The position numbers were made by a program, and so were the translations under genes. Shown piece by piece: positions 9,790 to 14,567 of a stretch of 58,861 nt of DNA; within the stretch, counting starts at the first letter, position 1, and the number at the start of each line of letters is the position of its first letter. The notes under the pieces were generated by a model. That model ran no database searches, was not told where the DNA came from, and saw only the letters and a program-made list of their open reading frames with translations. The stretch is from Planctomycetota bacterium (GTDB lineage: Bacteria; Planctomycetota; Phycisphaerae; Phycisphaerales; SM1A02). The stretch lies in contig QWPV01000010.1 of NCBI GenBank assembly GCA_003671055.1, positions 1-58,861 of the forward strand, read 5' to 3'.

Positions 9790-11904
9790 TCAGCCTTGCT
9801 TGAGCACTTCTTCCTTGAGACGCTCAGGCATGAGACGATAGGTCAATGGTTCCATCGTGCTTGTCGCGCGACCTTGGGTCATCGAGCGAAGGCTTGTCGT
9901 GTAACCGAAGAGCTCCGAGAGCGGCACTTCAGCGCTGATGATGCGAACGACATTACGCAACTCGGAGTCCGTGATCTGACCGCGACGAGAAGCGATATCG
10001 CCGCTCACGTTGCCGAAGAACTCGTCAGGTGTTGTCACGACGAGCTTCATGATTGGCTCAAGCAACGATACGCCAGCGCGTGAGCACGCTTCGCGGAACG
10101 CGAGCGAGCCTGCTTGTTCGAACGCGATCTGACTCGAGTCAACATCGTGATACGAACCGAACACGAGTTCAACCTTGACGTTGATCAGTGGGTATCCACC
10201 GATGACGCCGCTTGCAGCAGCGGTGCGCACACCGTACTCAATGGGCTTGATGAATTCGCCAGGAATGACGCCGCCGGAGATCTTGTTCAAGAAGACGACG
10301 CCGTCCTTCATTTCAAGTTCTTGTTCCTTCGCTTGCTCTGGTGTGATGGGGCTGACGGTGACAACTGCATCACCGAACTGACCACGACCACCGGACTGCT
10401 TCTTGAACAGACCACGAACATCTTTCGCTGTGCCTGTGATGGTTTCACGATACGACACGCGTGGCTTGCCGACGGTGACGTTCACCTTGAGGTCGCGAAC
10501 GAGCTTGTTCTTGATGATTTCAAGATGCAACTCGCCCATGCCTGCGATGATCGTCTCGCCAGTTTCGTCGTTGTAGTTTGAACGGAACGAAGGATCTTCA
10601 CGGCGAATCTGCGTGAGCGCATCGCCGAGCTTCTTCTTGTCTTCCGCAGAGTTTGGCTCGATTGACATCGAGATGACGGGCTCAGGGAACACCATGCGCT
10701 CGAGAACGATCTGTTGATCTTCATCGCAGATCGTGTCACCAGTGAAGGACTCCTTGAGGCCGACGACGGCAACGATGTTGCCGACCGACGCGAAGTCGAG
10801 TGCGGTGCGAGTGTTCGCATGCATCTCGTAGATACGCGACACGTTCTCGCGGCGACCGTTCGCAGGATTCACGACGCGCGTGCCCTTGCTGATGTTGCCG
10901 GAGTACACGCGAATGTAGGTGAGTGCGCCGTGCGTGTCCGCAACGACTTTGAACACGAGTGCAGAGAAGGGCGCATTCGCCGCATGTGGTCGGCTGAGCT
11001 TGATGTCTGGATCGCGAGGATCCACGCCTTGGACTTCTGCGCGCTCGGTTGGATTTGGGAGGTAGTCGATGACGGCATCGATGACCTTCTGAATACCGAC
11101 GTACTTCAGCGCAGCACCGCAGAGCACAGGGAAGCACTGCAAGTCGATCGTGCCCTTGCGAAGGCCTGCCTTGATTTCAGGGATCGTGATAGTCGACGCA
11201 TCCGTGAGGAACTTCTCGGTGAGTCGGTCGTCGAGTTCGGCGACTTTCTCCACGAGATTCGTGTGCCAGAATTCAACCGCATCGACGCAGTCAGCAGGCA
11301 CTGGGATCTCGGTGATGACTTCGCCTTCATCCGCTTCGTTCCACGTGAATGCACGCTTTTCGACGAGGCAAATGATGCCGATGAAGTCGTTGCCCTTGCC
11401 GATTGGATACTGAATAGGGATGCCGTTGGCGCCGAGACGAGTCAAGATCGACTTAAAGGAGAACTCCCAATCTGCGCCGGTCTTGTCCATCTTGTTGATG
11501 AAGCACATGCGCGGAACGTTGTACCGCTCTGCCTGTCGCCACACGGTTTCAGACTGCGCTTCCACGCCTTCCTTACCGTCGAAGACTGCAACAGCGCCGT
11601 CGAGCACGCGAAGTGATCGCTCAACTTCAATCGTGAAGTCGACGTGGCCTGGAGTATCGATGAGATTCAGTTTGTACTCATGGCCATCCTTTTCCCACGG
11701 GCAAGTCGTTGCCGCGGATTGAATGGTGATGCCGCGCTCTTGCTCTTCTTGGAGGAAGTCCATGGTTGCGGTGCCGTCGTGCACTTCACCAATTTTGTGA
11801 ATGCGGCCGGTGTAGAAAAGAATGCGCTCGGAGACGGTGGTTTTGCCAGCGTCGATGTGCGCGCAGATTCCGAAGTTTCGGATTTTCGTAAGGTCCTGAC
11901 TCAT
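9790..11904 (-). CDS. fusA: Translation elongation factor G
   Basis: 704 residues; a GTPase that drives translocation on the ribosome. The G1 motif is AHIDAGKTT, switch II DTPGHVD, and NKMD gives G4; domains II-V follow to the C-terminal MTQGRATSTMEPLTYRLMP. ATG 11904 (MSQDLTKIRNFGICAHID) was chosen over an upstream in-frame start at 12012 because it matches the family's N-terminus. It is the last gene of the minus-strand housekeeping run. 435 bases separate it from the RNase HII-like gene, with a probable promoter at 12245-12274, so it likely has its own long-leader transcript. Convergence or readthrough into the SpoIIE gene (50 bases downstream) is possible. Confidence 0.97.
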   Translation of the reverse strand: MSQDLTKIRNFGICAHIDAGKTTVSERILFYTGRIHKIGEVHDGTATMDFLQEEQERGITIQSAATTCPWEKDGHEYKLNLIDTPGHVDFTIEVERSLRVLDGAVAVFDGKEGVEAQSETVWRQAERYNVPRMCFINKMDKTGADWEFSFKSILTRLGANGIPIQYPIGKGNDFIGIICLVEKRAFTWNEADEGEVITEIPVPADCVDAVEFWHTNLVEKVAELDDRLTEKFLTDASTITIPEIKAGLRKGTIDLQCFPVLCGAALKYVGIQKVIDAVIDYLPNPTERAEVQGVDPRDPDIKLSRPHAANAPFSALVFKVVADTHGALTYIRVYSGNISKGTRVVNPANGRRENVSRIYEMHANTRTALDFASVGNIVAVVGLKESFTGDTICDEDQQIVLERMVFPEPVISMSIEPNSAEDKKKLGDALTQIRREDPSFRSNYNDETGETIIAGMGELHLEIIKNKLVRDLKVNVTVGKPRVSYRETITGTAKDVRGLFKKQSGGRGQFGDAVVTVSPITPEQAKEQELEMKDGVVFLNKISGGVIPGEFIKPIEYGVRTAAASGVIGGYPLINVKVELVFGSYHDVDSSQIAFEQAGSLAFREACSRAGVSLLEPIMKLVVTTPDEFFGNVSGDIASRRGQITDSELRNVVRIISAEVPLSELFGYTTSLRSMTQGRATSTMEPLTYRLMPERLKEEVLKQG

Positions 11905-12102
11905 GGGTGTAGCCTTTGACTCGGTCGGAGAGAAACGTGAACGGAAGTTCGGGAGAGAAGAGAGACTGATAGGCGGCAGCCTGAAGAACACAGGCGTCGC
12001 GGGTGCAAACAAATTGCGTGGTCGTAAGTTGTAGGTTCCGTGCGGAGAGTTTTGGAACTGGTCACCTTCGCGGTCGCTCGCGACAGGACGCAGAACTCAA
12101 CG

Positions 12103-12339: not shown

Positions 12340-13389
12340 TCACGCCATCCGAACGAAAGTCCGCTCAGGAACACGCTCAAGAACAAGGGTTGGCTGCACC
12401 TGCGCGAGGAATCGGCGCCCATCCTCGACATATCCAGCGGTGGGCTCGAGGCCAGGCTGCCGTGCCAAGAACCAGGCGTTCATGCGGCGCATCGCAAGCT
12501 CTCGGGTGTACTTTGCTGCCATGGACGCGAGCGCGGTGGGGAGGTGACGGTCTTCCGAGCGCGTTGCGAATGCGACATCGAGCTTCCCTTGTGCGCCTTC
12601 GATGCGATAGGTGCTGAGGTCGTCGTCTTCTTTGATGACGAGCACGCTGTCGTGCGGAAATTTCGATTGCAGCGCATGCGCGTACTCGGCGCGTCCACCT
12701 TGTCGATCAATCGCAGCAATCACGCGCGCACCTTGTGCAAGTTCACGCGCGGCTTCTAACTGCGTCATCACGAGTGACATGTTCAACGCGCCCTTGTTGC
12801 CGAGCCGTTCATACAACTGATTGAACGGGCTCGCGTCAAGCGTCGTGACGCGAAGTGCTGCAATCGAGCAATGTGCTTTCGCAAGCGCGCGACGCAGTAG
12901 ATTCGCGGCGATGCGAACATCAGGCAGTTCAATGTTTGACGGAAGTGGAAGCGCGTGTTGATACCAAGGCGCATCATCCACGTGCGGCAACTCCGCACCA
13001 ACCGCGTGGAAGTACGCAGCATCGTCAAGCGGAATCGCAAACGATGGATTGCTGCTCAGTGCTGCAAGTACGCCGCGCTCAAGCAGACGCAGGGGTGATT
13101 CATCCTGGCGCTTCAACTTTTTCGAGTCATCGATCGCCACACGGCGGCGTCGATCATTTCCTTTTCGACACACGCCACCCGAAAGCACACTCCAAAGATT
13201 TGGCGCGAGTGGAGTGAATTGCGTGGACGGCACACGAACCGCACACATGCCGACGCAGAGTGGACCGAGCAACGGACCGTAGCCAGCCTCATCGATGCCA
13301 ACATAGAGGACGTGATCCGTCGAAACCGCAACCTCAGTCGGCGCATCGATGATCGTTGCGGTGAGAATTGCGGCGTCAACGGAGGTCAT
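12340..13389 (-). CDS. Divergent RNase HII-like (RNase H fold) protein
   Basis: 349 residues. Residues 31-44 read GIDEAGYGPLLGPL, matching the DEAGRGPLAGP active-site motif of RNase HII with D33 and E34 conserved but the GRG arginine changed to tyrosine. A DDSKKL motif, a later acidic AAIDRQGG and the ASMAAKYTREL segment match the remaining conserved blocks of the family (DSKKL, acidic residue, SI-AKV-RD). The protein is longer than typical RNase HII (about 200 residues), with insertions between blocks. Expected activity is cleavage of RNA in RNA-DNA hybrids, but the GRG motif contributes to recognition of the ribonucleotide junction, so specificity may differ. It sits 38 bases upstream-to-downstream of mnmA in the same run. 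Confidence 0.75.
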   Translation of the reverse strand: MTSVDAAILTATIIDAPTEVAVSTDHVLYVGIDEAGYGPLLGPLCVGMCAVRVPSTQFTPLAPNLWSVLSGGVCRKGNDRRRRVAIDDSKKLKRQDESPLRLLERGVLAALSSNPSFAIPLDDAAYFHAVGAELPHVDDAPWYQHALPLPSNIELPDVRIAANLLRRALAKAHCSIAALRVTTLDASPFNQLYERLGNKGALNMSLVMTQLEAARELAQGARVIAAIDRQGGRAEYAHALQSKFPHDSVLVIKEDDDLSTYRIEGAQGKLDVAFATRSEDRHLPTALASMAAKYTRELAMRRMNAWFLARQPGLEPTAGYVEDGRRFLAQVQPTLVLERVPERTFVRMA

Positions 13390-13427: not shown

Positions 13428-14567
13428 TCAGCGTGCACGAGTGGTGGATTGAATCCATCCGCCGGCCAAAATCTGCTCGTTCTCGCCGGTGTTCGTGTAG
13501 CACACGACCGCTTGACCAGGTGCAACGCCTGATTCCATCTCTTCAAACACGACTTCGAGCGCGCCGTCGGCAGTGCTGCGCATCTGCGCGGGAATCGGTC
13601 GACCATGCGCACGCACTTGCGCATGCACACGCGTCCACGAAGTTGTCGGTGGCGCGTACCACACAGCCTCGGTCGCTTGCACTGCGCACACGTCCAATGC
13701 TTCGCGTGGACCAACCGTGACGGTGTTCAGTTGCGCGTTCTTCTCGATGACATAAAGCGGAATCGTCACGGCGGAAGTTGGAGGCACGGAGATTCCGCGA
13801 CGCTGTCCGATCGTGAATCGTTGATGACCAGCATGACGACCGAGTTCTTCACCGGACTCGTTCAAGATCGCGCCTTCTTCAAACGGAGCAGTGCGGCGAC
13901 CTTCAAGAAACGATGAGTAGTCCTGCGGAACGAAGCAGATTTCTTGCGAGTCGGGTTTGTCGAATACGCGCAATCCATGCTCGCGCGCAATGTCGCGCAC
14001 ATGCGGCTTCTCCATGCCACCGATCGGAAGCATCATGCGTTGCACGGCATCTTTACCGGTGCCGAATAGCACATACGACTGATCCTTCGCGCGATCGACA
14101 CCGCGTGTGATGCGAGGTTGCGATGCGTCGTCGTGCGTGATCTGCGCGTAATGGCCAGTGGCAACGGCTTCGCATCCGAGTTGCGCGGCGTACTCGCGAA
14201 GTTTGCCGAACTTCAACCAGTCATTGCATCGCACGCATGGATTGGGCGTGCGTCCCGCGTCGTACTCATCTGCGAAATACTGAATGATGCGACCGAAGTC
14301 ATTCTTGAAGTTCACCACGTAAAACGGAATGTTCAACTGCGCAGCAACGAGTCGACCGTCCTCGGAATCATTGATCGAGCAGCACCCTTGATGTCCGATC
14401 TTCGCTGGACGCGCCGCACATTGCGCAGCTGCAAGCGGTGCATCGAGCGTTTCGCCAGGCGACCCAAGGCGCATGAAACAACCAATCACTTCGTGTCCGG
14501 CTTGCTTGAGGAGCACTGCCGCGACCGAACTGTCGACGCCGCCAGACATGGCAAGCAGAACTTTCAC
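13428..14567 (-). CDS. mnmA: tRNA-specific 2-thiouridylase MnmA
   Basis: 379 residues; it thiolates U34 of tRNAs for Lys, Glu and Gln in the cytoplasm, using ATP and a sulfur relay. The PP-loop SGGVDSS opens the protein. The catalytic cysteines are in NPCVRCN and in DSQEICFV, and ATGHYAQI and the FTIGQRRGI segment are typical of the family. The start codon is GTG 14567, nine bases after the aldolase stop, so the two genes are very likely co-transcribed. Confidence 0.96.
   Translation of the reverse strand: MKVLLAMSGGVDSSVAAVLLKQAGHEVIGCFMRLGSPGETLDAPLAAAQCAARPAKIGHQGCCSINDSEDGRLVAAQLNIPFYVVNFKNDFGRIIQYFADEYDAGRTPNPCVRCNDWLKFGKLREYAAQLGCEAVATGHYAQITHDDASQPRITRGVDRAKDQSYVLFGTGKDAVQRMMLPIGGMEKPHVRDIAREHGLRVFDKPDSQEICFVPQDYSSFLEGRRTAPFEEGAILNESGEELGRHAGHQRFTIGQRRGISVPPTSAVTIPLYVIEKNAQLNTVTVGPREALDVCAVQATEAVWYAPPTTSWTRVHAQVRAHGRPIPAQMRSTADGALEVVFEEMESGVAPGQAVVCYTNTGENEQILAGGWIQSTTRAR

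Follow-up and report, generated by a model that had tools for sequence, protein, structure and literature searches.

The locus described here raises the question of whether a protein that resembles ribonuclease HII (RNase HII), with a tyrosine in place of the arginine of the GRG motif, belongs to an enzyme family with a different substrate recognition or is the form in which the Planctomycetota carry RNase HII itself. The locus lies in the window, the whole stretch of 58,861 nucleotides that was analysed (contig QWPV01000010.1 of assembly GCA_003671055.1, a planctomycete of the Phycisphaerales), and its product is referred to as P0001. The open reading frame has an ATG start, and the stop codon is counted within its coordinates. 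The first motif block reads GIDEAGYGPLLGP and holds D33, E34 and Y37, and further motifs follow as DDSKKLK (D88-S89-K90), AIDRQGGR (D228), ASMAAKYTRE (E297) and PTAGYVED (Y320). The first-pass annotation had described the catalytic D33/E34 pair with the remaining conserved blocks, as well as GYG replacing GRG, and a direct reading of P0001 agrees on both points.

Relatives of P0001 were read in two sets. The close alignment has 61 members, namely that of the window and 60 from the best 80 of 512 confirmed loci (an earlier alignment had 28 sequences). The distant set consists of 30 members fetched from the phylum, 29 of which were read (L176 was left out), giving a total of 90 sequences. The central residue of GxG is Tyr in 81 of these, Leu in 7, Phe in 2 and Arg in none. 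The features of the gene are arranged as follows.

12340..13389, reverse strand: P0001, ORF of 349 aa encoding the divergent planctomycete type 2 RNase H
13273..13302, reverse strand: motif VGIDEAGYGP, codons 30-39, with D33 and E34, GYG replacing GRG, and Pro after GxG; roles as described for T. maritima RNase H2 (PMC3025331)
13111..13131, reverse strand: DDSKKLK, the DSK motif of type 2 enzymes, codons 87-93; D88, S89 and K90 in 61/61 close and 29/29 distant members
12931..13110, reverse strand: insertion between the DSK motif and the canonical helix, approximately codons 94-153; a gap in the RNase HII and HIII alignment rows
12691..12708, reverse strand: motif DRQGGR, codons 228-233, with the third carboxylate D228; 61/61 close and 26/29 distant members
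12499..12525, reverse strand: motif SMAAKYTRE, codons 289-297, with the putative fourth carboxylate E297; Asp in the RNase HII rows (7/7)
12421..12441, reverse strand: motif TAGYVED, codons 317-323, with Y320, which aligns with the junction-sensing Tyr of RNase HII; role as described in PMC3025331

The earlier statement that the protein is about 150 residues longer than RNase HII holds for the comparison with the E. coli enzyme (349 against 198 aa). Approximately 25 of the extra residues form an N-terminal tail that is missing from most aligned relatives, and the others fall at about codons 55-82, 94-153 and 237-275, as judged from the alignment with boundaries drawn by eye. The second of these insertions contains a conserved LERGVL stretch and W142, and is modelled with a pLDDT of 83-98 per 10-residue block. 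The extra length varies, since the chain measured from close to the first motif runs to 316-345 aa in complete close members and to 262-373 aa in distant ones, and part of the insertions is absent from distant members such as L172.

Profile searches place P0001 near RNase HII at low scores. The Pfam model RNase_HII (PF01351) gives 37.5 bits (cut-off 25.8; E 3.1e-9), its best stretch covering only residues 30-53, and in six-frame searches it reached the gathering score in 39 of 61 near genomes and missed it in 22. The NCBIfam models for RNase HII and HIII all score well under their cut-offs; the best reaches 28.5 of 167 bits and another RNase HII model 26.4 bits (cut-off 123.3), and these models would therefore not label P0001 rnhB. 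When close members are taken singly, two NCBIfam RNase HII models match 61/61 at E <=0.001 and the RNase HIII model 19/61. Against the PDB, the single sequence gives weak matches led by RNase H2 and HII (best E 0.1). The 61-member profile gives 20 matches at E <=0.01, which are only RNase HII, H2A and HIII chains, with an archaeal RNase HII at the top.

The AlphaFold2 model built on the 61-row alignment has a pLDDT of 92.5 and a pTM of 0.90, with pLDDT below 50 only at residues 1-20, and is thus predicted with confidence as a type 2 RNase H fold. The first PDB matches found by Foldseek are an RNase H3, human H2A and an archaeal HII. In VIA-align, a second pass over Foldseek's own matches, M. 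jannaschii RNase HII (1eke) leads with Z 17.6 (202 residues, 2.6 Å), followed by A. fulgidus HII and B. stearothermophilus HIII (both 16.9), human H2A (16.6) and bacterial HII (10.7-13.6). Type 2 and type 3 RNases H fill the top 25 rows, after which Z falls from 10.7 to 6.4 with other folds. Since rows within Z 1 count as tied, the model points to a type 2 or 3 RNase H and gives no choice among archaeal HII, H2A and HIII. The N-terminal TBP-like substrate-binding domain of RNase HIII is absent from the model, which opens with the strand formed by residues 26-35; 25 of 28 aligned rows begin at the same strand, but their starts were picked near the first motif. On the PF01351 score, the predicted fold and four aligned carboxylates, the family fits the type 2 RNase H superfamily.

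Across the 61 close members D33, E34, G36, G38, D88-S89-K90, D228, R296 and Y320 are invariant, a pattern which, in an alignment of this depth, is not due to chance. Position 37 is Tyr in 59 and Phe in 2 of the close members, and Tyr in 22 and Leu in 7 of the 29 distant members. P39 is Pro in 59 and Ser in 2 close members and Pro in all 29 distant ones, and Y320 is likewise kept in 29/29 distant members. The glycines of GxG, the Pro that follows, the DSK motif and the junction Tyr, which are the residues of junction specificity, are thus kept in the family. Position 297 is Glu in 60 close members, Asp in one, and Glu in 29/29 distant members, and is Asp in 7/7 RNase HII rows. E297 was considered as a feature of RNase HIII and rejected, as the alignment places the Glu at the Asp column of HII. 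Planctomycete RNase HIII rows (n=17) have Asp after GxG in 17/17 and no junction Tyr (16 with a letter, 1 gap).

The third carboxylate is replaced by Gly in three of the 29 distant members (L151, L168 and L172), where the motif reads GKQGGR or GKHGGR. In the tree L172 stands apart from L151 and L168, which are sisters. The 78 genomes with PF01351 matches at E <=1e-8 include none of the three concerned (G069, G104 and G150), and by that search no other type 2 or 3 enzyme is seen in these three. These three members fit a non-catalytic protein of RNase H fold with a structural or regulatory role, a reading which is very improbable for the family as a whole, since the four carboxylates are present in 61/61 close members (counting the one with Asp for E297) and in 26/29 distant ones.

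The relationship to RNase HII and HIII, which the first-pass annotation had proposed to settle by phylogeny, was addressed with a 73-row tree over 197 columns. This includes 46 rows of the family (the window, 16 of 79 near members and 29 distant ones), 17 of 65 RNase HIII, 7 RNase HII and 3 GTG forms. The family forms one clade (support 100/99) apart from the RNase HII and HIII rows, and the RNase HIII clade (99/93) and the bacterial HII clade (100/100) are similarly recovered. In the free tree the family, RNase HIII and the GTG forms are grouped (96/90) and the stem of the family carries 1.26 changes per column; the bootstrap had not settled. Trees in which the family is joined to archaeal HII, bacterial HII or HIII are none of them rejected (AU p 0.43, 0.468 and 0.494, with 7 HII rows). 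By this sequence comparison the family is distinct from RNase HII and HIII, and more than one sister group is compatible with the data. The proposal of a separate clade is therefore upheld, and the AU test is compatible with joining that clade to either archaeal or bacterial HII.

The same results bear on whether P0001 is simply a canonical RNase HII with a common substitution. PF01351 scores over its cut-off, a GLG variant on a bacterial HII framework does exist in the phylum (L210), and the AU test permits the two unions with HII (p 0.43 and 0.468). Nevertheless, the 46-row clade (100/99) excludes the HII rows of bacteria and archaea, P0001 reaches only 28.5 of 167 bits with the best-scoring NCBIfam HII model, and the insertions are missing from the HII alignment rows. 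This explanation is extremely improbable and the least credible of those considered.

The distribution of the gene was followed in 393 Planctomycetota genomes with a completeness of at least 90%, and the family was found in 385 of them. As the first search scored at most five candidates per genome, the eight genomes without the family were searched again with all candidates scored; six gave nothing, and the weak matches in the other two are canonical RNase HII. In the near set the gene occurs in 41/41 genomes, that of the window included, and in single copy except for one genome where it was matched as two pieces. The titles of the best 80 of the 512 loci are mostly planctomycetes or uncultured bacterium; the exceptions are L035 (Limnohabitans) and L089 (Vicinamibacteraceae, which looks mislabelled).

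A second canonical rnhB in the same genome, suggested earlier as a check, was sought with PF01351, and none was found, as both matches fall within the P0001 ORF. The best PF01351 match among the 61 genomes nearest to the window has E 1.6e-6, and for the 41 of them also searched for the family the best match lies in the family gene. Across the phylum sample PF01351 at E <=1e-8 gives 80 matches in 78/393 genomes, the search being positive in 14/14 control genomes. That these strong matches are canonical HII was considered and rejected once they had been read: 67 of the 80 are RNase HIII (GKGD), 2 are GRG RNase HII and 1 is a bacterial-type HII with GLG, and the rest comprise 3 members of the planctomycete family, 3 long GTG forms, 3 short GKGE forms and 1 other divergent protein (L219). 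The RNase HIII genes (among L115-L142 and L177-L216) are fairly common in the phylum and stand beside the family in 67 of the 393 genomes, none being in a genome that lacks it.

A GRG RNase HII (E <=1e-8) occurs in only two of the 393 genomes, G063 and G085, both of which are among the eight without the family. The mutual exclusion gives a Fisher p of 3.6e-4, which rests on two genomes and ignores shared ancestry. The genome G213 carries the GLG bacterial-framework HII (L210) together with a family gene and RNase HIII. In the six remaining genomes without the family, which are 90-96% complete, no RNase HII was found either, and incompleteness may be the reason that neither enzyme is seen. The two GRG genes, L113 (G085) and L114 (G063), are sisters in the tree and have an archaeal-type look, L114 matching T. 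kodakarensis HII at about 4e-37 and E. coli HII only at 6e-11. This look and the closer match to the archaeal enzyme suggest, from sequence, that both were acquired by lateral transfer.

Further PF01351 proteins stand beside these. L217 (G108), L220 (G092) and L225 (G132) are long proteins that have a C-terminal extension and the motif DETGTGELLG or a similar one; all three GTG forms come from one family (f43), lie in genomes that also have a normal planctomycete family gene, and form a clade of their own. Four genomes of the window's own family (G199, G303, G345 and G347) have an extra match at E 1e-10 to 1e-13. Three of these proteins (L218, L221 and L222 respectively) are RNase HIII-like with GKGE for GKGD and end early or are cut, and the fourth (L219, in G347) is a divergent GVG form. 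These four genes may be decaying or repurposed.

The surroundings of the gene were compared in the same loci. In the window the two neighbours are:

13428..14567, reverse strand: mnmA, tRNA 2-thiouridine(34) synthase, 38 bases upstream of P0001 on the same strand
9790..12012, reverse strand: elongation factor G (EF-G), downstream of P0001 on the same strand

With flanks of up to 6 kb on each side, the best 80 of the 512 family loci include 47 with a MnmA match (18 on the same strand), 69 with EF-G (tblastn E <=1e-8) and 46 with an aldolase. None of the three was matched in the 30 distant loci, for which the flanks were 1.5 kb. One neighbour was read from each of 10 of these 30: semialdehyde dehydrogenase in three, MnmE, CBM9, HEAT and TPR in one each, and nothing in three. 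The neighbours in the best 80 of the 512 loci and in the 10 distant loci give no functional hint, and the family gene has the look of a relocated housekeeping gene rather than of part of a dedicated system. A mobile origin was also considered and rejected: plasmid and phage collections gave no tblastn match to the family at E 0.01, 31 stretches of viral contigs matched a pattern and none was confirmed as the family, no viral fold matched the P0001 model at E <=0.001, and PADLOC and PHROGs gave no match for P0001.

Taking sequence, model and distribution together, the family is probably the RNase HII-equivalent of the phylum, which would nick DNA at embedded ribonucleotides. In the mechanism proposed, the enzyme would find ribonucleotides embedded in duplex DNA and place a nick 5' of the ribonucleotide by metal-ion catalysis, and this nick would start ribonucleotide excision repair. 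By analogy with published structures, D33, E34, D228 and E297 would hold the metals, E297 presumably serving as the fourth carboxylate. Similarly, the backbone amides of GxG together with Y320 would recognise the junction ribonucleotide by its 2'-OH, along with the deoxyribose that follows, and the Tyr, Leu or Phe at position 37 would occupy the minor groove where RNase HII has Arg. The insertions (about codons 55-82, 94-153 and 237-275) may, at a guess, provide extra contacts to substrate or partner.

How much the Arg matters can be judged from work on known enzymes. Reading of the 2'-OH at the junction is ascribed, for T. maritima RNase H2, to Tyr163 and the backbone amides of GRG; Y163F seriously reduced activity on all substrates tested, and R22A had no effect on activity for most substrates but slightly lowered it for a single ribonucleotide (PMC3025331). 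RNase H3 is reported to retain only the two glycines of GRG (PMC3025331, PMC4132731), and in yeast RNase H2 the P45D change together with replacement of the junction Tyr is reported to give RNase H1-like activity (PMC4132731). Because GRG contacts the substrate by its backbone and R22A is mild (PMC3025331), the change from Arg to Tyr probably matters little. Since the family keeps both the Pro and the Tyr, incision at the junction is to be expected, and loss of the Arg is expected to be tolerable. The absence of Arg from every member read is a weak basis for a new specificity. Thus of the earlier suggestion of a distinct RNase H family with different substrate recognition, the distinct clade stands (100/99, against 7 HII and 17 HIII rows), and the different recognition finds no support in that form, the junction Tyr and the Pro being retained.

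A type 2-fold enzyme with changed specificity would cut mainly longer RNA/DNA hybrids, as RNase HI or HIII do, or some other structure, and single ribonucleotides would be handled otherwise, for example by nucleotide excision repair. This is unlikely. The lack of Arg in GxG and the presence of insertions would suit it, as would the Glu at the fourth carboxylate, RNase HIII being likewise described as DEDE (PMC9719913), and the long stem branch (1.26 changes per column) on the RNase HIII side of the free tree (96/90). The HIII side, however, is not significant (AU p 0.43 to 0.494), and the Glu of the family aligns with the Asp of HII, that of RNase HIII lying two residues earlier in what is presumed to be its catalytic position. 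Moreover, the Pro after GxG and the junction Tyr, which are known to set specificity, are kept. RNase HI is present in the genome of the window and in 50/61 near genomes, and the 67 RNase HIII among the 80 strong PF01351 matches stand beside the family, so the hybrid-cutting niche is often filled. RNase HI with the planctomycete family as HII-equivalent would give the common set of HI plus HII.

Counted against the HII-equivalent reading are the Glu as fourth carboxylate, the Gly at the third carboxylate in 3/29 distant members, G213, where the family occurs with a GLG HII and an RNase HIII, the six genomes in which neither the family nor RNase HII was found, and the lack of a functional hint from the neighbours. 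A bolder proposal, which is possible but doubtful, is that the family is a separate, phylum-wide branch of type 2 enzymes with a recognition chemistry of its own, made up of an aromatic or aliphatic residue at the GxG bulge, a Glu-containing metal site and the added segments. A single enzyme of this kind would either handle both tasks, nicking at single ribonucleotides and cutting longer hybrids, or link ribonucleotide repair to a partner specific to planctomycetes, and it would have taken the place of RNase HII early in the history of the phylum, close to its base.

A survey from 2007 reports RNase HII in nearly all of 235 bacterial species, and lists a single planctomycete among the 6 species of its Group E (PMC1950709). 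As Groups A, B, C, D, F, G and H are defined otherwise there, Group E is read, by elimination, as having RNase HI only (PMC1950709). Among the papers listed by searches of the open-licence literature, none beyond this survey was seen to treat a planctomycete RNase HII. A family that is present in 385/393 genomes, yet scores far under the RNase HII equivalog cut-offs, would explain why the survey shows no RNase HII for its planctomycete. As the family appears to stand in for ordinary RNase HII in nearly all the genomes sampled, the repair step that seems to be absent from the Planctomycetota is probably carried out by this variant. The family also offers a natural experiment on GRG, with no Arg in 90/90 sequences, three distant members without the third carboxylate, and a GRG enzyme replacing the family in two genomes. 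Provided that its members are active, the family would reveal which elements of junction sensing such an enzyme cannot do without.

Among known enzymes, the archaeal-type RNases HII (M. jannaschii 1eke, A. fulgidus 3p83 and T. kodakarensis 1io2) share the highest structural scores with several other enzymes (Z 16.7-17.6, tied) and give the best profile matches. They share with the family GPxLGP or GPxIGP after the catalytic motif and DSK, as well as GYPxD in 20/29 distant members. They differ in having GRG where the family has GYG, GLG or GFG and Asp rather than Glu as the fourth carboxylate, and the family is roughly 50-150 residues longer and forms a separate clade. Bacterial RNase HII (E. 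coli RnhB and T. maritima RNase H2) is like the family in the catalytic D-E-D, DSK, the junction Tyr and the presumed role. Its structural scores are lower (Z 10.7-13.6), and the E. coli and Azospirillum rows have GPLVG or GPLAG after GRG. Otherwise it differs from the family as the archaeal enzymes do, in GRG, the Asp fourth carboxylate, a shorter chain and a separate clade. The features of canonical RNase HII without a match in the family are thus the Arg of GRG and the Asp as fourth carboxylate, and the junction Tyr is matched.

RNase HIII (B. stearothermophilus 2d0a and 3asm, T. ammonificans 4py5) has similar structural scores (Z 16.7-16.9), and is described as sharing with the family a GxG with a free central residue (PMC4132731) and a DEDE set (PMC9719913). 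Unlike RNase HIII, the family has, according to the model, no N-terminal substrate-binding domain, and has Pro and not Asp after GxG, the junction Tyr, and its Glu at the HII column. The N-terminal domain, the acidic residue after GxG and the missing Tyr, all features of RNase HIII, are therefore absent. The eukaryotic RNase H2 subunit A (human 3puf, mouse 3kio) has the type 2 fold (Z 16.4-16.6) and GxGPxLGP as in the family, but differs in GRG and an Asp fourth carboxylate. Subunit A acts together with subunits B and C. Set among these enzymes, the planctomycete family is probably a variant of type 2 RNase H that works like RNase HII.
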